The notes under the pieces: generated by a model
The model's database searches: none
What the model was told of the DNA's origin: nothing
The model's input: the letters and a program-made list of their open reading frames with translations, nothing else
Source of the DNA: Rhodopirellula bahusiensis
GTDB lineage: Bacteria > Planctomycetota > Planctomycetia > Pirellulales > Pirellulaceae
Assembly: GCF_002727185.1 (NCBI RefSeq)
Contig: NZ_NIZW01000012.1
Location: 124,001 to 188,000 of the forward strand
DNA length: 64,000 nt
Reading direction: 5' to 3'
In this document: in pieces, positions 43,310 through 58,278 of the stretch
Layout of the letters: every line of letters begins with the position of its first letter
How positions within the stretch are numbered: position 1 is the first letter of the stretch
Made by a program: the position numbers and the translations under genes

Positions 43310-44578
43310 ATGTCCCTGCAGCGACGCAACACTCGCAATCGCCTGACGCGGCTCGGTTGGCAATTCATGCTGATCGGTATGTTTGGACTTCTCGGCGGGT
43401 CGCTCAACGGATTGAACCTACTGATCGTTGTTGCTGCGATGACTCTTGCGGTGCTGTTGGCTCAGTGGCGAGTCAGCCGGTCCACGATCGAATCCGTTCG
43501 CGTCGATCGGCGGGTCCCCAGCGAAGTGTTCGCTGGCAAACCCGCGAGAATCCGATATCAAGTCAGCAACCGCCATCGATTGATGCCGCTGTGGTTGATC
43601 TGCCTCAGCGATCAAATCATGCGGACCGGTGCGGACTCCCAGGCCATCGGATCGAGCAGCAACGCATCGACTCCCGCCATCGAATCCCGTTCGATCCACA
43701 CCGGCGTCGGGCTGCTGCTTCCTTCGAAAGCCACCAGCGCCTACCTCGATCTCACGTTTGAACGACGCGGGCGATATCGCTTGGGAAGATGGCGAGTTTC
43801 CACAACCGCGCCGTTTGCTTTATCGACCGCATGGCGTGAATCGACAGACGAAGAAGAATTTGTGGACGTCTACCCACGTCTGTTGAACCTGCCTCGATCC
43901 TGGCGACAACGTCTGCCCACCAAGGTCGGCAACGTCTCCTCCTCGGCTCACCGGCAAGGCCATGCCGACGAAGTCTTCTTCGGTCTTCGCGAATATCGCC
44001 GGGGCGACAGTCGACGACACATCCACTGGCGTACCACGGCACGAATCGGTGACTTGGTTGTGCGTCAATTCGAACAACAACGTCGATTGGACATCTGCTT
44101 TTTGGTCGATGCATACTGTCCAGCTTCAGCGGGCGAGAATGATCCTGCTTATGAAAGCGTCGAAACCGCAATCAGTTTGGCCGCTTCATTGGTGGTTCAG
44201 CTGTTCGGTGGATCGGGCAGCCAAATCATGCTGAGTGTCGCGGGCCAGCAAAACGAAACCTGCGGCGGCGGCCTGTCCCGCGAAGCTTTGAGACGGATGC
44301 TGCAAATTCTCGCTCGCGTGCAAACCACCGCCGCTCCAGACTTGGACCAATCTCTGGAACAAGTCGCCGGAGCGGTCAAGCATCTGCCCGACCTGGTCGT
44401 ACTCAGCCCGAGACCATTGTCAGAAGTTTTGGCTTCGGATGACAACCAATCCTCATTGCTGCGACAATGGCAACAACGTGGGCGATTGAACTGGGTCAAC
44501 CTGTCCGGCCGAGACGCCACAACCTGGATCGCCGAAGGCTCGTCTTCCAAATCATCCGCCGAGGCACTGCATGAGTGA
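43310..44578 (+). CDS. DUF58 domain protein
   Basis: The 422-residue product has two N-terminal hydrophobic helices (FMLIGMFGLLGGSLNGLNLLIVVAAM, about 18-45) and the DUF58 signature FFGLREYRRGDSRRHIHW (about 222-239), followed by a VWA-like domain (DICFLVDAYCPAS). DUF58 proteins typically pair with MoxR and a transglutaminase, as here. The exact function is unknown, but the set is linked to cell-envelope functions. Confidence 0.9.
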   Translation: MSLQRRNTRNRLTRLGWQFMLIGMFGLLGGSLNGLNLLIVVAAMTLAVLLAQWRVSRSTIESVRVDRRVPSEVFAGKPARIRYQVSNRHRLMPLWLICLSDQIMRTGADSQAIGSSSNASTPAIESRSIHTGVGLLLPSKATSAYLDLTFERRGRYRLGRWRVSTTAPFALSTAWRESTDEEEFVDVYPRLLNLPRSWRQRLPTKVGNVSSSAHRQGHADEVFFGLREYRRGDSRRHIHWRTTARIGDLVVRQFEQQRRLDICFLVDAYCPASAGENDPAYESVETAISLAASLVVQLFGGSGSQIMLSVAGQQNETCGGGLSREALRRMLQILARVQTTAAPDLDQSLEQVAGAVKHLPDLVVLSPRPLSEVLASDDNQSSLLRQWQQRGRLNWVNLSGRDATTWIAEGSSSKSSAEALHE

Positions 44579-47240
44579 CGCTTCGATTGCCGACGACGAA
44601 ATGAGCCGCACCGACGCACTCAATCTGCGTGAGTTGCAGGCGATCACCGAGACCATTCCGGACTCGCCGCTTCGCCTGCGAACAAAACTTGCGTTCGCGT
44701 TGGTGACGATGTTGTCTGGACTGGTGATCGGCAGCAGTGGACAAACTGAATCGCTGCCAATCATCGTGGTGTTCTTCAGTGTGGTCGGATTCCTATTTGT
44801 CGACTGGATGAAACTGTTTGCGTTGCCCTCCGTGATCGCCTACGCCGCCATGGCGATCGCAGCGATCTACTGCGTCACGGGCTTCATGCAAGACGACATG
44901 CAAGTCGGCAACAAGATGGAAGCCGTTGCGGAACTGTTGATCATCGCTCAGTCAATCTTGATGCTGCAGGAAAAGACGTCGCGACTGTTTGAACAACTCA
45001 TGATTTTCGCGTTGCTCAATTGCGTGGTCGCGGCAGTTTTCAATGATGCGTTTGCCTATGCGATCTTCTTCATCCCGCTGGCGATCTGCGGTGGCATGGC
45101 CATCACCTTGCTCGCGGCTGACAACGTAGTCGAGCAATCCCAGTCACCAGACCAGAACGCTAGCCTTGCGGCGCGTCCTTCAGCTTTAAACACGGAACCC
45201 GATCATTCCAATATCAAGTGGAACAACTCAGCCGCGGTGGATTCGTTTGCACGAGCGGGCGTGAACCTGCCGTGGATGATCGGGGTGATTTTGTTCCCCG
45301 CGGTTCTACTGTTCTCCGCCTTGTTCTTCTTTGGCCTGCCAAGACGCGTGGATGCCTCTCGAGGCAGCTCGCAAGGCGTTGCCTTGGTTGGGTTCAGCGA
45401 GGAACTGCGTCTGGGCGCGATCCAGCAGATGCAACAGAGCACTCAACGTGCTTTGCGAGTCGACTTGATCGATCGAGAAACCAAGAAACCTTACCCGGTC
45501 ATCAATGATCTGTATCTTCGCGGGGCGGTGCTGGAACAATACATGGTCGAAGCATCGACAACCTGGCGAGCGACTTCGGTGTCCATGTCACCACCGCGGC
45601 CATTGCCTCCCGAATATGTTCCACAACGCGCCAGCGACTCAAACTTTTACGACCGTGTGAATGTTCGCATCGGATGCGAATCAATGAACACCGAGAAGCT
45701 TTTCGCGATCGCGCCGTATCACTGGTCTCCCGGCAGTGATGACTTGGTGGAACTCAGCGGAAAATGGACCTTCGCCCGTCGCAACACCTCCGGCGGATCA
45801 GTCTCCGCTGGCGCGTTGGGCACGCCGTGGTACCCGCCCGTCAAATATCACTTCGGGACACACGCGTTTCGCAACGGTGCTCAAAGCCGATGGCTGGCGT
45901 ATCAAACACCTATGCTCGAAAGGTCCGTCAAGCCAGACGAACCTTCGGCGGATCTTACCGCCAACGACCTGAACTACATGGACCAGTTGCTTGAGTACCC
46001 TCAGGTCCTGATTCCCAGCGCCGAGATCTTGGCGAATTCACTCGTTGAAGACTTGCCAAGCAACAAAAAAACTGCCGCCGGGATCGCCGACGCTTTCGAG
46101 AAACACTTGGCGTTCAGCAGAGAATTTCGATACTCGCTGCAACCCAATCCATCGGCCACGGTGGGTGTTGATCCGATCGAACAATTCCTTTCAACCGACC
46201 GACGTGGTCACTGTCAATTTTTCGCGTCGGCGTTGGTGATGATGCTGCGTAGCCAGAACATCCCGGCTCGATTGGTTGTCGGCTATCACACCGACGAATT
46301 CAGCGAACTGGGCCAGTACTTCATCGTTCGACAAAACCACGCTCACGTTTGGGTCGAGGCATTGATCAATCGCGAGGACATCCCGGTCGGAACGTCGGTG
46401 TACGGGCAACCCGAGTCCGAATTCTATTGGCTGCGTTTGGATCCAACCCCGGGTGGCGGCGGAGTTGCCGGGGCCGAAGCCGGCAGCAACCAAATGCTCG
46501 ATCTGGCACAGGATCTTTGGGACGACTACGTCATTGAAATGGATTCGAAACGCCAGGAGACCGCCCTGATGTCCACACCAGGGCTGGCTCCGATGACGGC
46601 CTCTTATCGATCATGGATCGACCGAACACGAGAACTCGCCATGCGAATCAACGCCGGCGATGTGGAAGGCCTCGGCGGAGGCAAACTATTCTCGTGGCAG
46701 GGTGCCGTGATAGCAATCGTGCTCGGCATCCTCGCATTGGTCGGCCTGAAAATTCGCTTCCCACGTTGGTTGCGCAGCAAACTCGGCAAGAATGGCCAGC
46801 AAAAAGCCCCCCGGCCGACGATCCCGTTCTATGCCGAAGCACTCGATCTGCTTTCGAATCTTGGCATCGAACGACGACCAGGCCAAACGCCCGAAGAACT
46901 CACCCGGCAGCTTGCGGTTGCCAGCTCATCTTCTGGCTCCACCTCAACGCTGAATTCAAACGAGCCGTCTTCTGCGGAACCGAATCAAAACGATGAACGT
47001 GTGCAGGCCCTCGGACCGATGCGTCGTTTGACCGACGCCTTTTACGCATTACGGTATGGTCAGGATTCAGCGGCACCTGGAGCAGCTCACCAAGCTTCCG
47101 GCGATAGCACTGCAAAGCCCCACGCGGATTCCACTTCGTCGGGTGCTTCCGCCAAATCGGACCCGGCCATTTCTTCGCGTCCTGACATCGAAGATGCACT
47201 GAACACCCTTCGCCAAATTGCAAAGCGTTCAACCTCATGA
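44571..47240 (+). CDS. TgpA-like transglutaminase membrane protein
   Basis: The 889-residue product has a multi-helix N-terminal membrane domain (about 40-270), a periplasmic transglutaminase domain with the Cys-His-Asp triad at C548 (DRRGHCQFFASALVMML), H592 (HAHVWVEAL) and D624 (LRLDPTP), another helix near 700-722 (GAVIAIVLGILALVGL) and a C-terminal DUF4129-like region rich in Ser. It overlaps the DUF58 gene by eight bases and cmk by four. The substrate is unknown. Confidence 0.9.
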   Translation: MSDASIADDEMSRTDALNLRELQAITETIPDSPLRLRTKLAFALVTMLSGLVIGSSGQTESLPIIVVFFSVVGFLFVDWMKLFALPSVIAYAAMAIAAIYCVTGFMQDDMQVGNKMEAVAELLIIAQSILMLQEKTSRLFEQLMIFALLNCVVAAVFNDAFAYAIFFIPLAICGGMAITLLAADNVVEQSQSPDQNASLAARPSALNTEPDHSNIKWNNSAAVDSFARAGVNLPWMIGVILFPAVLLFSALFFFGLPRRVDASRGSSQGVALVGFSEELRLGAIQQMQQSTQRALRVDLIDRETKKPYPVINDLYLRGAVLEQYMVEASTTWRATSVSMSPPRPLPPEYVPQRASDSNFYDRVNVRIGCESMNTEKLFAIAPYHWSPGSDDLVELSGKWTFARRNTSGGSVSAGALGTPWYPPVKYHFGTHAFRNGAQSRWLAYQTPMLERSVKPDEPSADLTANDLNYMDQLLEYPQVLIPSAEILANSLVEDLPSNKKTAAGIADAFEKHLAFSREFRYSLQPNPSATVGVDPIEQFLSTDRRGHCQFFASALVMMLRSQNIPARLVVGYHTDEFSELGQYFIVRQNHAHVWVEALINREDIPVGTSVYGQPESEFYWLRLDPTPGGGGVAGAEAGSNQMLDLAQDLWDDYVIEMDSKRQETALMSTPGLAPMTASYRSWIDRTRELAMRINAGDVEGLGGGKLFSWQGAVIAIVLGILALVGLKIRFPRWLRSKLGKNGQQKAPRPTIPFYAEALDLLSNLGIERRPGQTPEELTRQLAVASSSSGSTSTLNSNEPSSAEPNQNDERVQALGPMRRLTDAFYALRYGQDSAAPGAAHQASGDSTAKPHADSTSSGASAKSDPAISSRPDIEDALNTLRQIAKRSTS

Positions 47241-47926
47241 TCATTACCATCGACGGCCCAGCCGGAGCAGGCAAAAGCAGCATCGCAAGACGCGTCGCGA
47301 GCGAACTTGGATTTGAGTTCCTTGATACCGGAGCGATGTATCGCGCCGTGACTTGGGGCGTCATGCAGCGTGGAATCGCCTGGGATGACGTCGAAGCGTT
47401 GGTTCAATTTGCCGACGCGGCTTGCTTGGTTTGGCAAGACGATCGCATCTACCTCGACGACCAAGACATCTCCGAAGAAATTCGTACGCCACAGGTCACC
47501 AGCCACATTCGACACCTGGCGGACCCACCCAAAATTCGCGAACGGATCACAGCTCAACAACGACGCATCGCCACGGGTCGCGACATCGTGACCGAAGGGC
47601 GTGACCAAGGCACCGAGGTATTCCCCGATGCACACTGCAAGATTTTCCTGACTGCGTCACCAGAAGAACGTGCCCGACGCCGGCAACAACAACTCGCTCA
47701 AAACGGACGAGCGATGACGGTGGAAGAAATCTTGACCGCGCAGAACCAACGTGATCTCGAAGACCGAATGCGTCCGGTCGGACGATTGCGAGCGGCCAGC
47801 GACGCAATCGTTCTCCAGACGGATGGCATGACTCCCGACGAAGTCCGCTTGGAAGTCCTGCGGTTGGTTCGCGAACGTCTGGAAGCCTCCGCAACCAACT
47901 CCGCTTCGGGCGGAACGTCCGCATGA
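47237..47926 (+). CDS. cmk: Cytidylate kinase
   Basis: The 229-residue enzyme phosphorylates CMP and dCMP. The P-loop is DGPAGAGKSSIARR (6-19); FLDTGAMYRAVTWG, VTEGRDQGTEVFPDA and the LID segment SPEERARRRQQQL are present. Its ATG overlaps the transglutaminase stop codon. The arrangement makes a housekeeping kinase depend on translation of an envelope operon. Confidence 0.93.
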   Translation: MIITIDGPAGAGKSSIARRVASELGFEFLDTGAMYRAVTWGVMQRGIAWDDVEALVQFADAACLVWQDDRIYLDDQDISEEIRTPQVTSHIRHLADPPKIRERITAQQRRIATGRDIVTEGRDQGTEVFPDAHCKIFLTASPEERARRRQQQLAQNGRAMTVEEILTAQNQRDLEDRMRPVGRLRAASDAIVLQTDGMTPDEVRLEVLRLVRERLEASATNSASGGTSA

Positions 47927-48462
47927 CCGCCTCTGGTGATCAACTGACCGAGCCTAGTGATCCTCGCGTGGTTGCATCCAACTTGATCACGCAACTGAAA
48001 CAATCGCAGCACCGTTTGATCCTGGCCGAAAGCTGCACCTGCGGCGCGGCCGCGGCCGCAATCGGAAGCGTCCCCGGTGCGTCCAACGTCTTTTGCGGCA
48101 GCGCGGTGACCTACCGAGAAACCACCAAGCAAGCGTGGCTGGGAATCACCGCAGCCGAATTGAAACAGCACACCGCCGAAAGCCAAGCCATCACGAACGC
48201 CATGGCAACCTCAGTTTTTGAGCGTACCCCCGACGCAACCATCTCCGCCGCCATCACAGGCCACCTCGGTCCCGACGCTCCACCCGCAGTGAACGGCATC
48301 ATCTTCATCGCCGTCCTTCAACGAGGTCGCGAACTCGAGCCGCAACGACTCGTCCTTCGCAGCTCCACCCGCCAGTCCCGACAAGCTGAAGCAACCGCCA
48401 ACCTCCTCATTGCAATCCAACGCCATTTGTCGTTGCCTGGACACATCCCGGTCAACGAATAG
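47923..48462 (+). CDS. pncC: CinA C-terminal domain protein (PncC-type nicotinamide-nucleotide amidase)
   Basis: A 179-residue stand-alone CinA-C domain, a family that deamidates nicotinamide mononucleotide. Conserved segments are LAESCTCGAAAAAIGSVPGAS (34-54), GSAVTYRETTKQAWLGI and ITGHLGPDAPPAVNGIIFIAV. The usual ESCTGG motif reads ESCTCG here, with Cys40 instead of Gly. The N-terminal MoCF domain of full CinA is absent. It overlaps cmk by four bases and ends the unit. Confidence 0.85.
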   Translation: MTASGDQLTEPSDPRVVASNLITQLKQSQHRLILAESCTCGAAAAAIGSVPGASNVFCGSAVTYRETTKQAWLGITAAELKQHTAESQAITNAMATSVFERTPDATISAAITGHLGPDAPPAVNGIIFIAVLQRGRELEPQRLVLRSSTRQSRQAEATANLLIAIQRHLSLPGHIPVNE

Positions 48463-48483
48463 CTGCTTCCCGATGACTCCTGC

Positions 48484-49011
48484 TTAGCGAAGCCGATGCT
48501 TCATCACTCGAAGCCCTGGGCCTCGGGTAACAACAGGAATCAGCTCAAAGTCAAAGCGTGCATAAAGCTTCACTGCCGCTTCGTTGGTTTCATCCACTAA
48601 CAGCAACAAGTATTCAGCCGGTTTCTTACGTTCACAATTGAGCTGATGTGCTTCAGAGATCAGATGATTCATGATTTGACGTGAGTATCGCCACTGCGCG
48701 TCCGGAGGCTGACCCTGAAACCGCTGGTCAATTCCCAGCATCGGAATGTAAAGCAGACTCGCATAACCACCGTCGGGCAATGGCCAACGCCACCGGACAG
48801 TCCCCACGGAACCGTAACCGACTACCTGGCCAGTCGCGTTTCGAAAGATCCAAACCTTGGTGCCATAGTTCGCGATGGACTCCATCGCGTCTGGCCCGAG
48901 AATCCACTCCGTGCAATATCGTCCGTGCTTGGTGTCACCACAAGAGAAGCCGACCAAGTCAACTTGGTCGGCTTCACAGAATTCGTCGGCATAAAGTTGG
49001 AACTCACTCAC
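48484..49011 (-). CDS. GNAT-family N-acetyltransferase
   Basis: The 175-residue product (GTG at 49011) shows a GNAT fold: FRNATGQVVGYGSVGTVRW (beta strands), an acetyl-CoA loop LGIDQRFQGQPP, and the C-terminal LLLVDETNEAAVKLYARFDFELIP. The GTG lies eight bases inside the upstream XRE regulator gene; a longer in-frame start at 49083 lies deeper in that gene and lacks conserved sequence. As the last gene of an operon with an XRE regulator it could be a toxin-type or modifying acetyltransferase; the substrate is unknown. Confidence 0.75.
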   Translation of the reverse strand: MSEFQLYADEFCEADQVDLVGFSCGDTKHGRYCTEWILGPDAMESIANYGTKVWIFRNATGQVVGYGSVGTVRWRWPLPDGGYASLLYIPMLGIDQRFQGQPPDAQWRYSRQIMNHLISEAHQLNCERKKPAEYLLLLVDETNEAAVKLYARFDFELIPVVTRGPGLRVMKHRLR

Positions 49012-49705
49012 CGTTTTGCTTTGCTTCCTTCCATGAAGGCAAACGCTTGCCGCGACTGGCCGATTGAGACTGCGAGTCATCACGCAAAGCGTTCGCCATT
49101 TCTTCGCTCATCACTTGCCCATCGCGACCAAAATCGACAACGGAATCCAAGTAATCAACGACTTCAATGTCCGGCCACAATTCGCGTATATCAACCTGCA
49201 ACGCGACTGCAATCTTCTCAAGCGTTACACGCTGCGGGCGACACTTACGATTCAGCATCTGAGAGATCGCTGGCTGGGTGCATTCGATACGTTCGGCAAG
49301 TTGTTTTTGAGTGATGTGCTTGGCCTTCATGATTGCTCGAAGTCGATCAGCGAACTGAGCCTCTTGTGAATCCATCTTCTCGACTTCGGCTTGCAGAACA
49401 GGAAACTTCTCTGCGGCCCCCGCTTCGGACTGCGCAAGGTCCATGCCGTAGCGGCCCTCTGTGTCGGGCAACAAACGAAACTGATCCAACAGCGTGTGCC
49501 ATGCTCGGCCCTTGTCACCAGAAAGAGACTCAGGGTCTTCAATGATCGCCATCAGCCGTTCCGAATTGGCCCGAAGCTGATCGCTGCACTCGGTCAGCGC
49601 AGCAATGAACGCTTGCTGTTGGGTCCCGTGCAGCGAAAGGATCATCCGCATCAGAGACGTGTTCGTGTTTTCGAGTGGCGCGTCGGGAGTTTCAGTTGTG
49701 CTCAT
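49004..49705 (-). CDS. XRE-family transcriptional regulator with a helical N-terminal extension
   Basis: The 233-residue protein has a helix-turn-helix of the Cro/CI type at about 117-175 (FADRLRAIMKAKHITQKQLAERI and TQPAISQMLNRK). The first 115 residues are helical and unrelated to simple XRE proteins, and a Ser-rich tail follows. It sits between a 103-residue gene (four-base overlap) and the GNAT gene (eight-base overlap). It likely autoregulates this operon and may also influence the divergent ABC-3C genes, which is inference. Confidence 0.82.
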   Translation of the reverse strand: MSTTETPDAPLENTNTSLMRMILSLHGTQQQAFIAALTECSDQLRANSERLMAIIEDPESLSGDKGRAWHTLLDQFRLLPDTEGRYGMDLAQSEAGAAEKFPVLQAEVEKMDSQEAQFADRLRAIMKAKHITQKQLAERIECTQPAISQMLNRKCRPQRVTLEKIAVALQVDIRELWPDIEVVDYLDSVVDFGRDGQVMSEEMANALRDDSQSQSASRGKRLPSWKEAKQNGE

Positions 49706-50013
49706 GATGTCGTCTCCACTTCAGGCAATCCAAACGGGTTGTCGTGGCGAATGTGCATCCGCTCCAGCGCGACGTTCAATCGCATCTGACGGATTTCAAT
49801 CAAAATGTCGGTCACTGGTTCGCCAATTCGGCGAACGTTGTGGTCAAACACACGATCCTCACCAGGCTCCCACCACTGCAACTTCAACGCCTTCCGCCGC
49901 AATCGTGCTCGCCCAGTCAGGCGTGGCAAGATCCCATGGGCATCACGGAAAGCAGACAAACAAATCCGCACTTCGTGCCGCGGAGGAATTTCAGGAGGTC
50001 GCAAATCTTCCAT
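49702..50013 (-). CDS. Small hypothetical protein, first gene of the XRE-GNAT operon
   Basis: A 103-residue, Arg-rich protein (for example LTGRARLRRKALKLQWW and NVALERMHIRHDN) with no signal peptide. ATG 50013 is chosen because a candidate promoter lies just upstream; longer in-frame starts would extend through that promoter. Its stop overlaps the XRE start by four bases. No family recognised. Confidence 0.6.
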   Translation of the reverse strand: MEDLRPPEIPPRHEVRICLSAFRDAHGILPRLTGRARLRRKALKLQWWEPGEDRVFDHNVRRIGEPVTDILIEIRQMRLNVALERMHIRHDNPFGLPEVETTS

Positions 50014-50028
50014 CGGCTTGATATAACA

Positions 50029-50057
50029 AAAATATAAGATGAAGTTCCGTTTGGCAA
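50029..50057 (-). promoter_or_regulatory. Candidate promoter of the 103-aa/XRE/GNAT operon
   Basis: On the minus strand TTGCCA (50052-50057) and TATTTT (50029-50034) are 17 bases apart. The short AT-rich patch is unusual for this region. The -10 box is only about 16 bases before the ATG at 50013, so the transcript would have a very short leader. Confidence 0.4.
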
Positions 50058-50276
50058 GGTGTTTTTCCGCCTTTTGCAATGAACTCGCCGTCGCGATAGC
50101 AGTTACAGCGAAGAATTTGCTCGAATGCGAGTTGGCTGAACGGCTAGTCAGTCGCGGAATCTTAGAAACGTGTCGCTTTGTAAGAGGCAGACCGGCAATG
50201 CACAGCGACAGCGGCTGGTTGACCAGTGGTGTCAGCCGCAAGCCTCAAGATGAGTTCATGAACCAGGAATCACTCG

Positions 50277-51188
50277 ATGGATCGTTATCAACGAAACTAC
50301 CTCCGACTGATGGCACGAGATGACTATCGGGAAAAGAAACGACAGGTGTTTCAAGATTGGGTTGGGCAATTGTTGAAGAAAGCGCTCAAAGGTGACTACG
50401 AGAATATCCGTCTAACGCAGGGCGACGGCGGCTTAGACGGAATCATCCTAAGCGAGTCGGCTGTCGTCGCTGTGTTCGCACCGCGAAGGGCCACGCAATC
50501 TGAACTGGAGAAGAAGATTGCGTCCGACTTCGCAGCGGCAGAACAAACCCTGAAGGAACGTAAGGTCGTATTGAAAAAATTGGTTTTTGTCCACAACGAT
50601 GAGGGGCTGACCAAGGGTGTGGGGACGCTGATGATGCAGCTTCAGCAAGACAAGCCGGGAGTGAAGATCGAAATCTGGACGTTTGAAAACCTCTGGACAC
50701 TGATGCAATCGCTTTCCGAAGATGAGATCCAGGACCTGCTTGGCCTGGCCCCAACCTCCCAAATGTTAGAGAAACTGGAGATGCCTTCGATTCGGGAGGT
50801 GATCGAACATCTGGTGTCCGTTCAAGCCGAACCGCCCGCAGTGGGAGAGCTGACAATACCTGACCCCGGCAAGCTGCAATACAATGAACTGAGTGAAACG
50901 TGTCGGGATTTGCTTCGTGTTGGCCGTTCCAAGCACGCTTTAGTAGCACGCTACTTGGAAGGGATGACGGATTTGCGGACTGGCGAGGCAATCGCCGAAG
51001 GATTCCGCCGGAAATACGCGTCCTGCCGAGCGGGCGGGATGCTGCCGGATGACACCTTCGAGACACTGTGGCATTTCGCTGGCGGTGACCACTTCACGAC
51101 ACCATTCCAGCATGCGGCGGTCACTGCCGTGCTGTCCCACTTTTTCCACACCTGCGACATCTTTGAAAACGCACGCGATTCCTCATGA
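50277..51188 (+). CDS. ABC-three-component system effector: nuclease-like N-domain plus C-terminal helical domain
   Basis: The 303-residue product begins with a helix (REKKRQVFQDWVGQLLKKAL) and the motif LTQGDGGLDGIIL (46-58) followed by a strand VVAVFAPRR (63-71). This layout is that of restriction-endonuclease-like folds (Mrr/Vsr type), but the second half of the catalytic motif, usually Q/E-x-K or a Tyr-Ala-Pro variant, is changed to VFAP. Residues about 195-300 form a helical domain typical of ABC-3C effector C-termini. Ribosome site AGGA lies eight bases upstream. The next gene overlaps by four bases. Assignment rests on motif and gene order. Confidence 0.75.
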   Translation: MDRYQRNYLRLMARDDYREKKRQVFQDWVGQLLKKALKGDYENIRLTQGDGGLDGIILSESAVVAVFAPRRATQSELEKKIASDFAAAEQTLKERKVVLKKLVFVHNDEGLTKGVGTLMMQLQQDKPGVKIEIWTFENLWTLMQSLSEDEIQDLLGLAPTSQMLEKLEMPSIREVIEHLVSVQAEPPAVGELTIPDPGKLQYNELSETCRDLLRVGRSKHALVARYLEGMTDLRTGEAIAEGFRRKYASCRAGGMLPDDTFETLWHFAGGDHFTTPFQHAAVTAVLSHFFHTCDIFENARDSS

Positions 51189-51430
51189 TCCTTCCAACGA
51201 AACATCTGCCGACCGAACGTTCGCTGATTGCAATTGGCGCAGACATTGTTGGTCTATTGGATGAACCAAAATCGGTTTCCAAGCTTTGGCTGGATTTTCA
51301 GAAACTGAATGAGCAACGGAATCTGCGTCTAACTTTCGATTGGTTCACCTTGGCTATCGCGATGCTCTACGCAATTGACGCGGTTGAGCAATCGGATCAT
51401 CGCCTGCTCCGGCGCGAGGTGACGCAGTGA
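51185..51430 (+). CDS. ABC-three-component system middle component
   Basis: This 81-residue protein starts MILPTKHLPTERSLIAIGADI and has a helical, winged-helix-like body (LDEPKSVSKLWLDFQKLNE, then FDWFTLAIAMLYAIDAVE). The N-terminal LPTKHLPxxRSL pattern fits the middle-component 6 (MC6) family found between effector and ATPase in ABC-3C loci. It overlaps both neighbours by four bases. It probably bridges the effector to the ATPase. Confidence 0.72.
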   Translation: MILPTKHLPTERSLIAIGADIVGLLDEPKSVSKLWLDFQKLNEQRNLRLTFDWFTLAIAMLYAIDAVEQSDHRLLRREVTQ

Positions 51431-53178
51431 TCCATCAAGTGACCAGCTCACTGGACACTTTCAAGTCCATTCGCCTGAAACCAGGGCTAAACTTGATCGT
51501 TGCAGAGAAGAGCAAGGGAGCGACTGAACGACAGACGCGAAATGGTTCGGGAAAAACAAGTCTCGTTCGAATCATCGACTTCTTGCTAGGGTCAAAATGC
51601 GATGGCGATTCAATTTTTCGATCGCAGTCGCTCGCGGACGAACAATTCACATTGTCTTTTGACCTCGGTGGTCACCGTACTTCAGCAACTCGTACGGGCA
51701 ACGAAAAGAACCGAATCGTTGTTGACGGGGTGTACGATGATTGGCCGATCGAGCCGAAACTCCACAAGGAAAGCGGAGAGTATCGGATCAGTAAGACGAA
51801 CTGGTGCAGTGTCCTCGGATCGCTGATGTTCGATTTGCCGGTTGATATCGAATCCTACGGGCCGACCTTTCGCGCCATGATCTCTTATTTCGTCCGACGC
51901 GAATCGAGCGGTGCTTTCCAAGAGGCTCAGAAGCAATCTTCTCAACAGCAGAACTGGGATGTCCAAACCAATCTTTCCTATTTATTCGGGCTCGATTGGG
52001 AAATCCCGCACGCCTTGCAACAGGTACGTTTGAAAGAAAAGTCTCTTGCGACATTGAGGAAGGAAGCGAAAGGCGGTGCATTGGGCGCGCTAATCGGAAA
52101 CATTGGTGAGTTGCGTACTCGCTTGGCGGTTGCTGAAAAAGAAGCGAACCGATTGAAATCGGAGCTAGAGGGATTTCAGGTCCTGCCGGAGTATCACGAA
52201 CTTGAAAAAGAAGCCTCAGCGCTTGCGATCCGTATCTCCGAGTTGACAAGTGAGAATACGCTCGACCTGGAACGAGTGGAGTCGCTGACAAGCCAATTGG
52301 AGGTGGAACGATCAACCGATGACTCCTTGCTAGAAAGCGTTTACCGCGAGGTTGGGATTGTACTTCCAGAATTGGTAACCAAACGCTTGGACGATGTGAG
52401 AAAATTTCATGCGGCGATCATTCAAAATCGACGCATCCACCTTCAGAGCGAAATCGACGACGCAAAGGCTTCAATTGATCGTCGTGATGCCGAGAAAGAA
52501 CAACTGGATGATCGTCGCCTCGAAATCATGACGACCTTAAATAGCCATGGAGCCCTTGATCAATTCTCGAAGCTGCAGGAGGAATTGTCTCGCCAGCAGG
52601 CAACAGTTGAAGAACTGAAGAAGAAGGTCGCATTGGCGAGACAGCTTGATTCCGAAACGACCGAACTGACGATCGAACGAGCGAAGATCAAGCAGCGTCT
52701 TACGACGGACCTCGACGAGAAAGCTGATACACTCAACGACTCGATTGTGATCTTCGAGGAATTCTCGAAGCTGATTTCAGACCACGAAGGAAGTCTCGTC
52801 ATCGAACCGAAGGAAAATGGCCCTGAATTCGCGGTCAACGTCGAGGGCAAAGAGAGCAAGGGAATTCGTAGTATGCAAATCTTCTGCTTCGATATGACGC
52901 TTGCAGTGCTTTGGTCGAAGCGAAATGCGGGGCCAGGTTTCCTGGTTCACGACAGTCATTTGTTTGATGGAATGGACAGTCGACAGGTTGCTCGTGCCAT
53001 CGAAATCGGAGCCAGTCAGTCCAAACAGCATGGCTTCCAATACATAATTTGCATTAACTCCGACCAGCTGGAAGCAGCGGAATTCGCAAACGAATTCGAT
53101 CCCGCACCATACCGAAACTCAGTTGAGATCACTGACGCATCGGAGACAGGTGGGCTCTTTGGAATGAGGATCAAGTGA
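51427..53178 (+). CDS. DUF2326-type coiled-coil ABC ATPase of an ABC-3C system
   Basis: The 583-residue product (GTG start, GTGA overlap) is an SMC/RecN-like ATPase. Walker A is NGSGKTS (39-45, K43), a long coiled coil spans about 200-435, and the C-terminal DUF2326 half carries the Walker B region GFLVHDSHLFDGMD (504-517, D509) and the core IICINSDQLE. DUF2326 ATPases are the motor of ABC-3C conflict systems, thought to sense invading nucleoprotein and activate the partner effector. No transmembrane segment is present, so it acts in the cytoplasm. Confidence 0.85.
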   Translation: MIHQVTSSLDTFKSIRLKPGLNLIVAEKSKGATERQTRNGSGKTSLVRIIDFLLGSKCDGDSIFRSQSLADEQFTLSFDLGGHRTSATRTGNEKNRIVVDGVYDDWPIEPKLHKESGEYRISKTNWCSVLGSLMFDLPVDIESYGPTFRAMISYFVRRESSGAFQEAQKQSSQQQNWDVQTNLSYLFGLDWEIPHALQQVRLKEKSLATLRKEAKGGALGALIGNIGELRTRLAVAEKEANRLKSELEGFQVLPEYHELEKEASALAIRISELTSENTLDLERVESLTSQLEVERSTDDSLLESVYREVGIVLPELVTKRLDDVRKFHAAIIQNRRIHLQSEIDDAKASIDRRDAEKEQLDDRRLEIMTTLNSHGALDQFSKLQEELSRQQATVEELKKKVALARQLDSETTELTIERAKIKQRLTTDLDEKADTLNDSIVIFEEFSKLISDHEGSLVIEPKENGPEFAVNVEGKESKGIRSMQIFCFDMTLAVLWSKRNAGPGFLVHDSHLFDGMDSRQVARAIEIGASQSKQHGFQYIICINSDQLEAAEFANEFDPAPYRNSVEITDASETGGLFGMRIK

Positions 53179-53415
53179 AAGTGCTTTGCAGCTCGACTGT
53201 CGGATGGAGCGGAAATTGGAAACCTCGCTACGAGCGTGAAACCAGTTCAACCAGGTCTCACGTAAATTTCGACCACCGTTTCGGCAGAACAGCCAAAAGT
53301 CCAGGGCACATGTTCGAACAATGAATGGCATTCCTGAGACGACCCGTTGAATCGCTTTCGGCTGACGCGGCCATCCTTCATGCCAACGAGCGTCCGGAGT
53401 TTGCTCAGACGTCGT

Positions 53416-55260
53416 TCACATCGGCGAAATCATGATCGCGCATCCGCCTCCAGCACCCATGGTCGCCGTCAACTTGCTGTTCGAGGTGACCTGGCGCGAC
53501 TGGATGATCACCTGCTTTTTATCGTCTGGATCTTCCGCGTAGATTTTGGCGACAAACTCCCCTGGGCCCAGGAAATCGAGCGGGATGTCGAGGCTTCGAG
53601 CTTCGTTGACAATCGATCCAACGAACCACCGATCACCCTTTCGTCTGGCGACCGTCATGTAGCTCCCGATGGATCCCTGGACCACCTTCGAGTCATCCCA
53701 CGTCGTCGGCATCTCCTTCCAGAATTCAAGTTCAGGATAACGATTCTCAGGATATCGATCGGCCTGGTCGTACCAATGCAGATATTGCAGCGGACTGTAG
53801 AAGACGACTCCCAAAGCAAGCTGGAACGAACGGCTGACGACACGCCCATTCAAATAACAGGGCGTGTAGTCGCCAGCCCCAGCGATCATGCGAGCAAACG
53901 AGGTGGTCAAAACATTCTTCGGAGGATTCCCCTTCTCTGGCAATTCCTCATTCCCAAGGATCCCTTCGACCGTCAGCACATGTGGGTAGGTGCGCTCGAT
54001 CCCGGTCAACCGAAAGTTGTCATGGATATCAACGATCAGTTTGTATTTCGCGGCTTTCTCGATCGCATCGTACAAGAATTCCATGTCAGACTGGCTCTTC
54101 CAATCAACAAACCCCATCTTGACCCCGCGAATCCCCCATTCCTGATACGTCTGAAATGTTTTATCCAGGTCGTATCCTGACATGGCAATTTTGTTGATGT
54201 AACAGATCAGCCCAATGCCATGTTCGTTTGCGTAGCGAATCGTTTCCTGCATGTCGATCGAAGCAATGACCGTCAGAGGGTTCGAATCGGCGTCGCGTTC
54301 CGGTCCATACCAGCCGGCGTCATAGTGCACATATTGGTACTTGTTCGCCGCGGCGTAGTCGACAATCGCTTTTGCACCCTTTGTCGTCAGGCTGCTTCGC
54401 CATACCTTCCCAGGTTGGATCCATGCCGTGTCGCTCAGTTTAGACGGCGGCGAAAGATTCTGAAGCAAGTAGTGATTCTCAACCAAGGTCCCGGGATGTT
54501 CCGCCACCATGATCACTCGCCAAGGAGTCGTCAGTGACTTGTTCGCCGATACGGTCCCGCTTCGAAACCGCGTGACCAGTTGATTTTCACCGGATCGATT
54601 CAGCATCATGGGAGCGTAGCGCCCAATGCTTCCTGCTTCTGCGATCGCCACAAAATGCGATCCGGTTTCGACCAGCAGCGGACGAACGGAATGGCCCGGC
54701 ATCTCAGAGAGTCGCAGTTTGGAATACCGTGCCTGCGGATAGTCATCCCAGTAGACAAAGTGATCGCCGGTGAACTGAAAGTGTGTGTCTTCTGATTTCA
54801 GTTCCAACTCATCGATCCCTTCCTGCGGCGGAATCGCGTAGCGAAAAGCGACCCCTTCGTCGTACGCCCGGAATGTCAATTCGAGCCTTTGTGTTTCGTC
54901 GGTTGCCCCGCGAAGTTGAATCACACACCCATTGTACGAATCAGGGTAGGAAGCTCTTGAACCGACCACGGGAACCCAACTCCCGTTTTCAGATTCGGTC
55001 CGCTTGCTGTCGACAACGAACCGATCACCGAGTTGGTCCCCATCAAGGACCAAGGCAAGCCTGGAGTTGACAAGAATGGCGACGTCTCGAAACGCGACGC
55101 TGTAGTGCGGCACACCTTCCAGGAGTGAAAACTGAATCGAATGATCTCCGGATGGAGACACGATCGTCATCTCTTCGGCGGCCCAATTGCAGTTCGACGC
55201 AGAGAGAAGCAACCAAAACGCGATCGGAAAGGAAGCCAGCTTTGGTATTGAGATCATCAT
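53416..55260 (-). CDS. Glycoside hydrolase family 97 (alpha-glucosidase/alpha-galactosidase type)
   Basis: The 614-residue product has a signal peptide (about 1-27), an N-terminal beta-sandwich (about 30-270, IVSPSGDHSIQFSLLEG) and a TIM barrel with YQYVHYDAGWYGPERD near 312-327, GVKMGFVDWKSQSDMEFLYDA near 374-394, and IHDNFRLTGIERTYPHVLTVEGILGNE near 407-433. GH97 includes SusB-like alpha-glucosidases and retaining alpha-galactosidases; the Asp in GFVDWK is the likely nucleophile of a retaining member. It acts outside the cytoplasm. No other glycan-use genes adjoin it. Confidence 0.9.
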   Translation of the reverse strand: MMISIPKLASFPIAFWLLLSASNCNWAAEEMTIVSPSGDHSIQFSLLEGVPHYSVAFRDVAILVNSRLALVLDGDQLGDRFVVDSKRTESENGSWVPVVGSRASYPDSYNGCVIQLRGATDETQRLELTFRAYDEGVAFRYAIPPQEGIDELELKSEDTHFQFTGDHFVYWDDYPQARYSKLRLSEMPGHSVRPLLVETGSHFVAIAEAGSIGRYAPMMLNRSGENQLVTRFRSGTVSANKSLTTPWRVIMVAEHPGTLVENHYLLQNLSPPSKLSDTAWIQPGKVWRSSLTTKGAKAIVDYAAANKYQYVHYDAGWYGPERDADSNPLTVIASIDMQETIRYANEHGIGLICYINKIAMSGYDLDKTFQTYQEWGIRGVKMGFVDWKSQSDMEFLYDAIEKAAKYKLIVDIHDNFRLTGIERTYPHVLTVEGILGNEELPEKGNPPKNVLTTSFARMIAGAGDYTPCYLNGRVVSRSFQLALGVVFYSPLQYLHWYDQADRYPENRYPELEFWKEMPTTWDDSKVVQGSIGSYMTVARRKGDRWFVGSIVNEARSLDIPLDFLGPGEFVAKIYAEDPDDKKQVIIQSRQVTSNSKLTATMGAGGGCAIMISPM

Positions 55261-55565
55261 TCAGGCGAAACACTGGTTAACAAATTTTTCTGAGCGCTCG
55301 CCCGACAGCGGCGAGCGAGGCGAAGACCAAATCGGAACAGGCAAACTTGATCTTACCGTGACGCCAAACGGCGACACTTTGTGATTCAGCCGTTTCACAA
55401 GATTGGTTTCGTGATCGGCTTCGCAATCCAAACACTGTTGGCTCAGAAAACCAGCCCGCGCTGGTCGTATGTAGCGAGACTCCCCAAGAACCCCGGATCT
55501 TGGTGAATCCGGGGTTTTGGGGCACGGCGTTTTGATCGCAGGCTGAAAGCCTATGCCACTTTGGC
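55261..55565. other. Hairpin-rich spacer between two leftward genes
   Basis: This 305-base gap contains three inverted repeats: 55295-55317 (8-base stem CGCTCGCC/GGCGAGCG), 55450-55465 (6-base stem ACCAGC/GCTGGT) and 55482-55522 (long hairpin). The rest shows no coding or RNA-gene signal. Confidence 0.6.
55482..55522. terminator. Long GC-rich hairpin, possible terminator of the oxidoreductase gene
   Basis: The left arm (55482-55498) pairs with the right arm (55507-55522) in a 16-base-pair stem (CCCCAA + AACCCCGGAT with one bulged G) around an eight-base loop. It lies 43 bases past the stop of the leftward oxidoreductase gene. There is no T-run, so it may act as a processing or stability element instead. 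Confidence 0.45.
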
Positions 55566-56918
55566 TCAGACCAATTTGGTCTTGCCGGGGATCGCGTGAG
55601 CGGGCTCGGGGAGCGACGCCTTCATGTCCAGATTCTCGGGGAACAGGTTCAACGTCGATTCGTTCACGGCGAAGTCCCACGTCACCAGCTTGCCGGAGTA
55701 AGCCGCCATGCGGCCGAGCACGGCGGTTAGCGAACTGTCGGCTGTTTCTTTGAATTCGACGATTGGTTTACCCGAACGCACGCTGTCGATCAGGTCCTTG
55801 TGTTCTTGCTTGTAGGCAGCTCCCAAGTCGCCCTTCATCGACCAAACCTCGTTTCCATCGCGATCATGAATCATGGCACCACGATTGATTCCGTAGATCG
55901 TGCAGATGCCTTTGCTTCCATAGATGATGTTGGAGTTGTCACCTTGAGCATTCGGGATTTGGCGGCACTTGAATGAAACGGTTCGGTTGCCGGGATAGAG
56001 GTAATCGATGCTCATGCTGTCCCACATCTCGCTGCCTTCGGGACGAGTGAAACGACCGCCACTGCCATAGGCTGACTCAGGTGGACCGCCCATGATCCAG
56101 TTGATCGCATCGATGTTGTGCACCGCTTGCTCAGCAATCTGATCGCCGGACAACCAGATGAAGTGCATCCAGTTGTAGATCTGAAACTCGGTGTCGCTCA
56201 TGCCTTCCTTGCGAGTCTTGTTCCAAATCCCGTTGCTGCAATAGCGAGCCGTCGCGGAGATGATGTCGCCAATCGCACCATCGTGCAGTCGTTTGATCGC
56301 TTCGACATAATTCGCTTGCCGACGATACTGGGTGCCGGTCACGATCGATGTGTTGTTGGCGATGGCTTTGTCGTTCGCTTCGACGCAGACACGGTAGCCG
56401 GCTGGATCAACGCAGGTTGGCTTTTCGGCGAAGACATGCTTTCCCGCATCGACGGCATCCAAGACATATTGAGGCCGAAATCCGGGCGGTGTCGCGAACA
56501 ACACCACATCGACATCGGGATCATCGAGAACCTTTTTGTAAGCATCGATGCCGCCATGCATTTTGGCCGTTTCGACCGCGACCTTGTCGCCGTGACGCTT
56601 GGTGAGTGACTCGCAAATTTTCCCGAGCTTGTCGCCTTCCAAGTCAGCGATCGCGGCAAGCGAAACATTGTCATTGATGGTGAGCGAATCGTTGATCGCT
56701 CCCGTTCCACGACCGCCAGCTCCGACCAATGCCAATCGAATGTGTGAATTGGGTGAACTGCTGACGGACTCGGCGGGCTCAGCCCCTCGAATCGGACGAG
56801 CGGCTGCGGTGGCGGCAACGCCCGCAGTCAACGCGGCCCCCGTGCCCATGAAATGGCGACGGGTGGAAGAGTCGCCGGTGACCGGCGAGGAGTTGTCTGA
56901 AAAGTTGTTTTTTGGCAT
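55566..56918 (-). CDS. Tat-exported Gfo/Idh/MocA-family oxidoreductase
   Basis: A 450-residue NAD(P)-dependent oxidoreductase with a Tat signal (STRRHFMGTGAALTAG, R20-R21), the dinucleotide motif LALVGAGGRGTGAI (62-75) and the family's EKP (165-167). Planctomycetes encode many such proteins, generally tied to sugar or inositol derivatives. Export suggests the cofactor is bound before secretion. GH97 lies downstream in the same direction across a hairpin-rich spacer. Confidence 0.9.
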   Translation of the reverse strand: MPKNNFSDNSSPVTGDSSTRRHFMGTGAALTAGVAATAAARPIRGAEPAESVSSSPNSHIRLALVGAGGRGTGAINDSLTINDNVSLAAIADLEGDKLGKICESLTKRHGDKVAVETAKMHGGIDAYKKVLDDPDVDVVLFATPPGFRPQYVLDAVDAGKHVFAEKPTCVDPAGYRVCVEANDKAIANNTSIVTGTQYRRQANYVEAIKRLHDGAIGDIISATARYCSNGIWNKTRKEGMSDTEFQIYNWMHFIWLSGDQIAEQAVHNIDAINWIMGGPPESAYGSGGRFTRPEGSEMWDSMSIDYLYPGNRTVSFKCRQIPNAQGDNSNIIYGSKGICTIYGINRGAMIHDRDGNEVWSMKGDLGAAYKQEHKDLIDSVRSGKPIVEFKETADSSLTAVLGRMAAYSGKLVTWDFAVNESTLNLFPENLDMKASLPEPAHAIPGKTKLV

Positions 56919-57084
56919 GGTCGGCGGGCTCCTGATGGAGAATGCACGGGAGGGAAGAACACGAATGTTCTCCCCAGTTTAATGCAATCCCGCCACCAAT
57001 TCCGAAAACCGGCCGAGATCGAGCAGCTCTCGCCACTCCGCGACTTTTAAGTCCCTGCAGTCAGCCCTAAGAACGCAGCTCGAC

Positions 57085-58278
57085 TCAGGCTTCGTCGAGC
57101 AGATCGACGGCTGCGAAGGCTTGGCCTTCCAACATTGCCAGGCTGGCTCCACCACCGGTGCTGACGTGGCTGACATCATCAGCGAATCCGAGTTGATCAA
57201 CCGCAGCGGCACTGTCACCACCGCCGATGATGCTGACGGCATCGCCATCAGCGATCGCTTGTGCAACGGCTTTGGTGCCTTCGTCCATTGGTGGTTTTTC
57301 AAACACGCCCATCGGTCCGTTCCAAACGATGGTCTTGGCCGACTTGATGACATCGGCGTACTTCTTCGCAGTTTCAGGACCGATGTCCAAACCTTCCATG
57401 TCGTCCGGAATCTCACCCGCAGTAACGACCTTCTTGTTGCAACCAGCGATGTTGCCGAAGTCGTCTCCGCAATGCGTGTCGGAAGGAAGGAGCAGCTTGT
57501 CGCCACCCTTTGCCATCAACTCCTTTGCCAATTCGACTTTGTCCTTTTCGACCAAGGAGTTGCCAACTTTGCCGCCGCTGGCCAACGAGAACGTGTAAGC
57601 CATCGCGCCGCCGATCAAGACCGAGTCGCAGATGCCCAACAGATTGTTGATCACGTTGATCTTGTCGCTGACTTTTGCTCCGCCAAGGATGGCGACGAAA
57701 GGTCGCTCAGGGTTGCCGATCGCATCGGCGAGATACTGGATTTCTTTGGCTACCAAGTGGCCGACCACGCGTGGTTTTCCAGCCATGGCTTCGGGAACAG
57801 CGACCATCGACGCGTCTTTGCGGTGGCAAGTCCCAAACGCGTCGTTGCAGTAAGCGTCGGCCATCGCCGCCAACTTGCCAGCGAACTCCACGTCGCCTTT
57901 CTTTTCGCCTGGATTGAAACGCAGGTTTTCCAAAACCAGGACTTCGCCCGAGGCTAGCGAGCCAGCTTTGGCGGCGGCATCTTCACCAACGGTGTCGCTC
58001 GCAAAGTGAACGGTGCTGCCGAGCAATTCGCCCAATCTTTTCGCGGCCGGAGCCAGCGAGTACTTCTCGTCGCCTTCACCACCGGTTGGTCGACCCAAGT
58101 GGCTCATCAAGATCACCTTGCCGCCACGATCGAGGACGCTTTTGATGCTGGGCAAAGCCATGCGAATGCGTCGGTCATCGGTGATGGCGAGTGAATCGTC
58201 CAACGGCACGTTGAAGTCGACTCGCATGAGGACGGTTTTGTCTTGAACGTCAATTTGATCAATGGTTTTCTTGGCCAT
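57085..58278 (-). CDS. pgk: Phosphoglycerate kinase
   Basis: The 397-residue glycolytic kinase interconverts 1,3-bisphosphoglycerate and 3-phosphoglycerate with [16 protein letters not shown] (about 18-27), [32 protein letters not shown] and [13 protein letters not shown] are standard. ATG 58276-58278 (MAKKTID) is chosen; a much longer frame upstream has no family sequence. A GGAG ribosome site lies about 13 bases upstream. Confidence 0.96.

Follow-up and report, generated by a model that had tools for sequence, protein, structure and literature searches.

An ABC-three-component cassette of the MC6/CTD10/DUF2326 branch at a probable exchange site in Rhodopirellula bahusiensis, with a possible Lamassu-like mechanism

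Introduction

ABC-three-component (ABC-3C) conflict systems were reportedly first described by Krishnan and others in 2020, and here we analyse a candidate member encoded at positions 50277 to 53178 of a 64,000-nucleotide stretch of Rhodopirellula bahusiensis DNA (contig NZ_NIZW01000012.1; this whole stretch is hereafter the window). The consulted sections of a review place ABC-3C in the Lamassu superfamily together with DdmABC, active against phages and plasmids; they report a coiled-coil CxxC in many LmuB, the Lamassu ATPases, and a Walker B exchange of glutamate for glutamine, for which low ATP hydrolysis is suggested (PMC10586767). DNA-end and hairpin sensing by Lamassu is covered in the consulted part of a 2026 PLoS Pathogens review (PMC12904381), and solved structures of Lamassu complexes exist.

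The closest described systems are the PADLOC candidate PDC-M68, ABC-3C with MC6, CTD10 and DUF2326, known at NCBI by the name 'ABC-three component system middle component 6'. Examples are found on plasmids of Phaeobacter gallaeciensis (pP63_f, ATPase 47.7% identical to that of the window), Polaromonas, and Sphingomonas. The locus studied here has the same components in the same order, of the same sizes and mostly with the same 4-bp overlaps, and differs only in host, insertion site, and sequence divergence, which includes an alanine in place of a motif glutamine in the effectors of its lineage.

A further relative is yydBCD of Bacillus subtilis. The best solved match of the window's ATPase is chain A of PDB entry 9a6c, titled 'Integrative model of YYDD-YYDB', and from its length this chain would be YydD. 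B. subtilis matches MC6 above the cut-off, and of the two DUF2326 matches in B. subtilis and Bacteroides ihuae, one is over the cut-off. CTD10 matches none of 14 control genomes, which indicates that the effector end of the B. subtilis system is either different or too distant. According to the consulted part of one study, the foreign-DNA silencer Rok represses yydBCD (PMC8894471). In the literature searched we found no defence test of yydBCD and no paper on the YydD-YydB model, and neither name occurs in the main text of PMC10090944.

The cassette is an ABC-3C system

Three genes on the forward strand make up the locus. Gene 1 (50277..51188, ATG start) encodes a 303-aa effector with a REase-like N-domain and the ABC-3C C-terminal domain 10 (Pfam CTD10, E 3.7e-13; PADLOC PDC-M68A, E 2.1e-21). 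Gene 2 (51185..51430, ATG start) encodes the 81-aa middle component MC6 (Pfam MC6 over residues 3-76, E 1.6e-14), for which PADLOC gave no match, and gene 3 (51427..53178, GTG start) a coiled-coil ABC ATPase of 583 aa (Pfam DUF2326 over residues 449-581, E 1.7e-37; PADLOC PDC-M68B over residues 1-581, E 6.3e-161). The original prediction, made from the letters of the window, had described three rightward reading frames joined by 4-bp overlaps, ATGA between genes 1 and 2 and GTGA between genes 2 and 3, and its coordinates proved correct to the base. The window's own genome has a single DUF2326 match and a single MC6 match.

All codons of the trio (303, 81, and 583) align with those of the two nearest relatives, in Stieleria tagensis (L008) and a Planctomycetaceae metagenome-assembled genome (L009), whose ATPases are 91% and 87% identical to the window's, respectively. 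Mismatches between the window and S. tagensis at codon positions 1/2/3 number 28/17/116 in the effector, 6/2/29 in MC6, and 45/28/248 in the ATPase. The excess at third positions, seen against both relatives, indicates that the three genes are protein-coding and under purifying selection.

All three proteins score above the curated Pfam cut-offs: 54.1 bits for MC6 (cut-off 27.2), 50.6 for CTD10 on the effector (28.1), and 128.7 for DUF2326 (28.7). These matches, the canonical order effector-middle-ATPase, and the PADLOC matches to PDC-M68A and PDC-M68B place the cassette in the MC6/CTD10/DUF2326 branch of the ABC-3C systems. The same order was found in all 12 plasmid regions that were opened (see below). 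HMM searches thereby bear out the earlier proposals of an MC6-like protein, a DUF2326 ATPase rather than a RecN/SbcC type, a C-domain on the effector, and an ABC-3C gene order. The SMC_N model reaches just 14.4 bits on the ATPase (E 0.025; cut-off 40), which sets the protein apart from the RecN/SMC family, and none of the three proteins reaches the cut-off of any NCBIfam model. In PADLOC the ATPase scores 534.8 bits with PDC-M68B against 31.9 bits with LmuB (E 2e-8), and with LmuB far from being its best-matching model it is not a Lamassu ATPase in the strict sense. The Lamassu superfamily in the broad sense of the review, as far as its consulted sections describe it, does include the cassette, which has an SMC-like ATPase fold, a small middle protein, and a variable effector (PMC10586767).

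There is little doubt that the trio is of a known anti-virus/anti-plasmid kind of system, one that is largely untested. ABC-3C systems had earlier been called little tested; going by the consulted sections on DdmABC and the Lamassu superfamily, this does not hold for ABC-3C as a whole, but it apparently does for the MC6/DUF2326 branch, since the open-licence full-text literature searched yielded no functional test, which is no proof of absence. The locus thus adds to a catalogued class of which this branch is apparently untested.

The ATPase lacks a Walker B glutamate and a hook

We aligned 49 ATPases, including the window's and leaving out two viral loci, L082 and L085, that duplicate L079 and L084; in a scan of 39 loci for the ATPase, 38 were positive at E <= 1e-8 and one that has MC6 only (L055, from G441) was negative. 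The Walker A motif occupies residues 36-44 (51532..51558, + strand), with G42 and K43 conserved in 49/49 sequences, and the Walker B motif residues 505-510 (52939..52956, +), with D509 in 49/49 and a model strand at 505-508 leading up to it. A degenerate ABC signature region may be assigned by its position to residues 477-483 (52855..52875, +), where S477 is found in 40/49 and G479 in 48/49 sequences. The residue after D509 is S in 40 sequences, G in five, N in two, and Q and K in one each, and E in none. With this glutamate missing from all 49 ATPases, ATP probably serves as a switch, slow or one-shot, and not as motor fuel.

None of the 49 ATPases has a CxxC in the coiled coil. The motif occurs elsewhere in two rows, at frame residue 11 or 13 and upstream of the chosen start, and is absent from the window's ATPase, which thus lacks the zinc hook that marks many, although not all, LmuB. 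The AlphaFold2 model of the window's ATPase has a mean pLDDT of 85.5. Its best Foldseek match is 9a6c_A (586 residues, E 6.5e-25), followed by LmuB (9ux7, 9hqu, 9hqx, and 9nyg), SMC, and Rad50; the title of 9hqu includes 'nuclease sequestration state'. Sequence searches of solved structures gave nothing usable.

The locus therefore resembles Lamassu/DdmABC (LmuA-LmuC-LmuB) in pairing an effector and a small protein with an SMC-like ATPase and in the fold of that ATPase. It differs in the weak LmuB sequence match, in the serine at the Walker B position that is glutamine in LmuB as described in the consulted review sections, and in the lack of a coiled-coil CxxC throughout the branch. With Rad50, SbcC, and SMC the ATPase shares an ABC head and a coiled coil, whereas the window's branch has short coiled coils and neither CxxC nor Walker B glutamate, and is patchy and mobile.

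The effector combines a REase-like domain with CTD10

The N-domain of the effector (approximately residues 1-160; 50277..50756, +) has a predicted PD-(D/E)XK (REase) fold, based on AlphaFold2, Foldseek, and two alignments, A1 and A4. It is followed by CTD10 (residues 172-297; 50790..51167, +), which is recognised by Pfam and by an HMM built from effectors only, is helical in the AlphaFold2 model, and is the presumed docking domain. The effector model, computed from a 12-row alignment, has a mean pLDDT of 84.2 and a pTM of 0.80, and the order of helices and strands in its N-domain suggests a REase core. The best Foldseek match in the PDB is Nt.BspD6I (E 0.11, probability 0.97). Among the best 50 of 477 rows, nine have a probability >0.5, and these are the BspD6I nickase and its small subunit, EcoT38I, and Avs4, all of them restriction-type nuclease proteins that we take to belong to the PD-(D/E)XK superfamily.

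The GDGGLDG motif on which a nuclease-like protein had been proposed is present at residues 49-55; as a nuclease, the protein is a REase-fold candidate with weak fold statistics. G49, D50, D54, G55, and K80 are invariant in 21/21 effectors of A1, which were taken by overall similarity without the two of 22 hits whose heads differ, and in 12/12 rows of A4, three of which are also in A1. The third motif is a non-canonical [FY]Q.YAP instead of (D/E)xK.

Of ten other effectors of the branch that were scanned, seven have HNH matches (two just under the cut-off), two have phosphorylase-like (PNP) matches, and one has no head match. Just four of these ten pass the Pfam cut-off for CTD10, but the effector-only HMM strongly matches nine, the tenth (L090) lying outside the scanned set.

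A Pfam match that joins effector and ATPase

Pfam CTD10 (PF20275) also matches the ATPase, over the coiled-coil and hinge stretch (residues 284-395; 52276..52611, +), and the CTD10 scan gave two hits per genome in 7 of the 10 positive genomes. We considered homology between the effector C-terminal domain and the ATPase middle domain and rejected it: profile-profile alignment with hhalign gave a probability of 0.3%, an effector-domain HMM run over 39 ATPases reached a best E of 0.16 and supported no shared domain, and in the reverse test an ATPase-middle HMM run over 23 effectors reached a best E of 0.035. The effector-only HMM, run over a set of 59 sequences, recovered 10/10 effectors that had not been used to train it, at E <= 3.6e-21, a control that is not wholly independent in that these effectors were originally found by similarity to the window's; its best value among the 49 ATPases was 0.76. 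The Pfam match on the ATPase is thus probably a model artefact, and PF20275, judged by these comparisons rather than by its seed alignment, probably mixes two things. The double match may explain why, on many plasmids, NCBI gives the name 'ABC-three component system protein' to both effector and ATPase, and it makes PF20275 an annotation trap that probably leads to misnaming.

The cassette sits at a probable exchange site

Comparison with congeners delimits a foreign segment of approximately 3.3 kb (50039..53345, no strand assigned). The window ceases to match G006 after 50038 and G011 after 49788, and matches G011 again from 53346 and G004 from 53412. In G004 the site is empty: sequences matching GH97 and CinA, the genes on either side, are separated by approximately 40 bases. 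G011 retains the CinA, GNAT, and HTH genes and has approximately 380 bases in place of the window's 3.56 kb; the HTH and GNAT genes (48484-49705 in the window) occur there without the system and are not counted among its parts. At the same site, G006 (L119:6151-9000 / L120:2151-6785) has another candidate defence gene: its open frame of 1,545 residues matches PDC-M54A (E 2.4e-24), contains HEAT repeats, and weakly matches STAND NTPases. The short stretch in G011 shares 88% identity with the region where this gene starts and appears to be a remnant of it. That congeners have the flanking genes without the cassette indicates that the cassette is foreign and exchangeable, and together these states suggest that the spot beside the HTH gene resembles a small defence exchange site that is empty or holds either ABC-3C or another candidate defence gene.

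Over the compared interval 44001-58000, the relatives share with the window essentially the first to the last codon of the cassette (50276-53181 in S. tagensis, 50277-53162 in the Planctomycetaceae genome). In S. tagensis the cassette's start codon shares bases with the stop codon of a gene for a DrmMI-like methylase, and genes for SIR2 and HerA lie downstream. The Planctomycetaceae copy is preceded by a reading frame that by eye resembles the same methylase, with a DUF3800 gene between, and is followed by a YhcG/DUF1016 nuclease (PDC-S02). At the borders of the window's cassette, counts of promoter, terminator, and repeat signatures did not exceed those of shuffled sequences, and no target-site duplication was seen. 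The GC content of the cassette (approximately 0.50-0.53) is at or slightly below that of the flanks, a weak signal.

The surroundings of the S. tagensis copy (L008:169-13011) form a dense defence island that comprises the DrmMI-like methylase, the ABC-3C cassette, SIR2, HerA, a protein that matches the DrmMI/DrmD tail, and a PDC-M03A (HipA-like) protein.

Distribution and horizontal transfer

The system is patchy in the window's phylum. Relatives of the ATPase (E <= 0.001) occur in 7/60 related genomes including its own (6/59 others); within the genus, 2 of 12 other genomes have one, both distant (E 2.5e-39 and 2.4e-14). MC6 was found in 13/392 sampled genomes of the phylum including the window's own (12/391 others), 12 of them over the cut-off, and CTD10 in 10/198 genomes of the class, again including its own (9/197 others).

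On plasmids, matches were found in 47 of 72,556 records, with hosts of several phyla that range from Streptomyces to Hymenobacter. Effector, MC6, and ATPase stand side by side in all 12 records opened, with 4-bp overlaps between effector and middle component in 9/12 and between middle component and ATPase in 10/12; such trios are already named 'ABC-three component system' by NCBI. A DNA search of the plasmids with the whole operon returned one record, at 5% coverage, and a DNA search of Escherichia coli genomes with the ATPase gave no match. Translated searches (tblastn) of 50,697 phage records with the ATPase likewise gave none. In viral contigs, a single-sequence ATPase query found nothing, the ATPase alignment found two loci, and the effector alignment found ten.

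A quick tree of the 49 ATPases, some on long branches, groups the window with L008, L009, and G042, and then with G041. With viral contigs left out, it implies at least six host changes between the window's phylum and plasmid hosts. The type of effector head (REase, HNH, or PNP) changes at least two times, with 11 rows lacking a firm head, L053 among them, left out, and such few changes suggest that the effector heads follow the ATPase lineages. The ATPase of G015, a member of the window's family, is 86% identical to a copy on an Enterobacter kobei plasmid and 45% identical to the window's.

The G015 cassette (L041), whose contig is 9,378 bases long, shares 84-95% identity with plasmid copies from Polaromonas and Enterobacter and with a viral contig. 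On the Enterobacter and Polaromonas plasmids (L062 and L063), a RelB/DinJ antitoxin is next upstream of the cassette. On four of the 12 plasmids opened (L060, L064, L069, and L070), the next annotated upstream gene is a recombinase or integrase.

Discussion

Taken together, we lean towards reading the locus as a complete single-copy ABC-3C conflict system that was acquired as a naked cassette where defence genes turn over and that works by a Lamassu-like mechanism. The three proteins would form one complex, in which two ATPases pair via their heads and coiled coils, which are short and lack a hook, and, together with MC6, hold the effector by its C-terminal domain, with CTD10 as the docking part, so that the REase-like nuclease is kept inactive. 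The ATP-bound heads would then engage an aberrant structure in invader DNA, such as an end, a hairpin, or a replication intermediate, upon which the effector might be released or multimerise and cut DNA, so that the invader or the infected cell dies. ATP would act here as a slow or one-shot switch and not as motor fuel.

We also put forward, as a doubtful yet possible generalisation, that the whole DUF2326 branch consists of hydrolysis-poor, hook-less, SMC-like ATP-gated clamps, in which serine or another residue replaces the catalytic glutamate, and in which the capture of an invader's DNA structure commits the complex a single time and sets free a nuclease whose REase active site is non-canonical. 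If this were true, the DUF2326 clamp would work as an irreversible trigger, by a mechanism unlike those of Rad50 and Wadjet.

Several observations count against the defence reading or its details. The sequence similarity to LmuB is weak, as the bit scores above show, which makes the transfer of the Lamassu mechanism a step of inference. The Foldseek matches of the effector are all weak, with the nine named above at E >= 0.1 and none below 0.001. In 30 REase-type effectors, which were picked from 33 by the D50/D54 motif and in which the counts of these two residues are therefore true by construction, the glutamine of the third motif is alanine in six, including the window's, and the residue two positions further on is not a lysine; this exchange and the missing lysine render the nuclease activity of the effector uncertain. 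Support from the neighbourhood is uneven: of ten neighbour proteins scanned beside five further copies in the phylum, none matched PADLOC at 1e-5. Finally, the G015 copy may be a recent cross-phylum transfer, or it may be contamination of its 9.4 kb contig.

An unlikely alternative sees the trio as a toxin-antitoxin-like module for addiction or plasmid stabilisation, in which the effector is a toxin held by ATPase and MC6 and the whole is selected for its own spread and not for host defence. Carriage on plasmids, the recombinase or integrase genes next upstream in 4/12 opened regions, and movement as a minimal cassette without an integrase of its own are in keeping with this. However, the chromosomal copies in S. 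tagensis and the Planctomycetaceae genome lie among defence genes, the window's site is shared with another candidate defence gene, and the consulted sections of the review describe activity against phages and plasmids for related Lamassu systems (PMC10586767). The two readings are not exclusive, in that abortive defence and addiction can be one device.

We give similarly little credence to a dead or re-purposed REase fold in the effector N-domain, which would serve in binding while the system acts other than by DNA cleavage. The exchange of glutamine for alanine in the window's lineage, the absent lysine, and the weak fold statistics would fit such a domain, but D50, D54, and K80 are invariant in 21/21 (A1) and 12/12 (A4) effectors, and the same exchange occurs outside the window's clade (L066 and L080), which argues that the position is tolerant rather than decayed. 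A catalytically dead effector on account of the alanine was accordingly not adopted, since the position varies in 6/30. A housekeeping repair complex, in which a Rad50/RecN-like ATPase and a nuclease process DNA ends, is very improbable: the ATPase fold does resemble SMC and Rad50 heads, but the occurrence is patchy even among related and same-genus genomes, Pfam assigns DUF2326 and not RecN, the cassette is horizontally exchanged, and the Walker B glutamate is missing.

As a discovery the locus is ordinary, a clean added case of a catalogued defence class, and it is useful for testing. The relative yydBCD of B. subtilis offers a tractable test bed for the branch, and the three states of the Rhodopirellula site, which is empty, holds ABC-3C, or holds another candidate defence gene, make the exchange of cargo visible.

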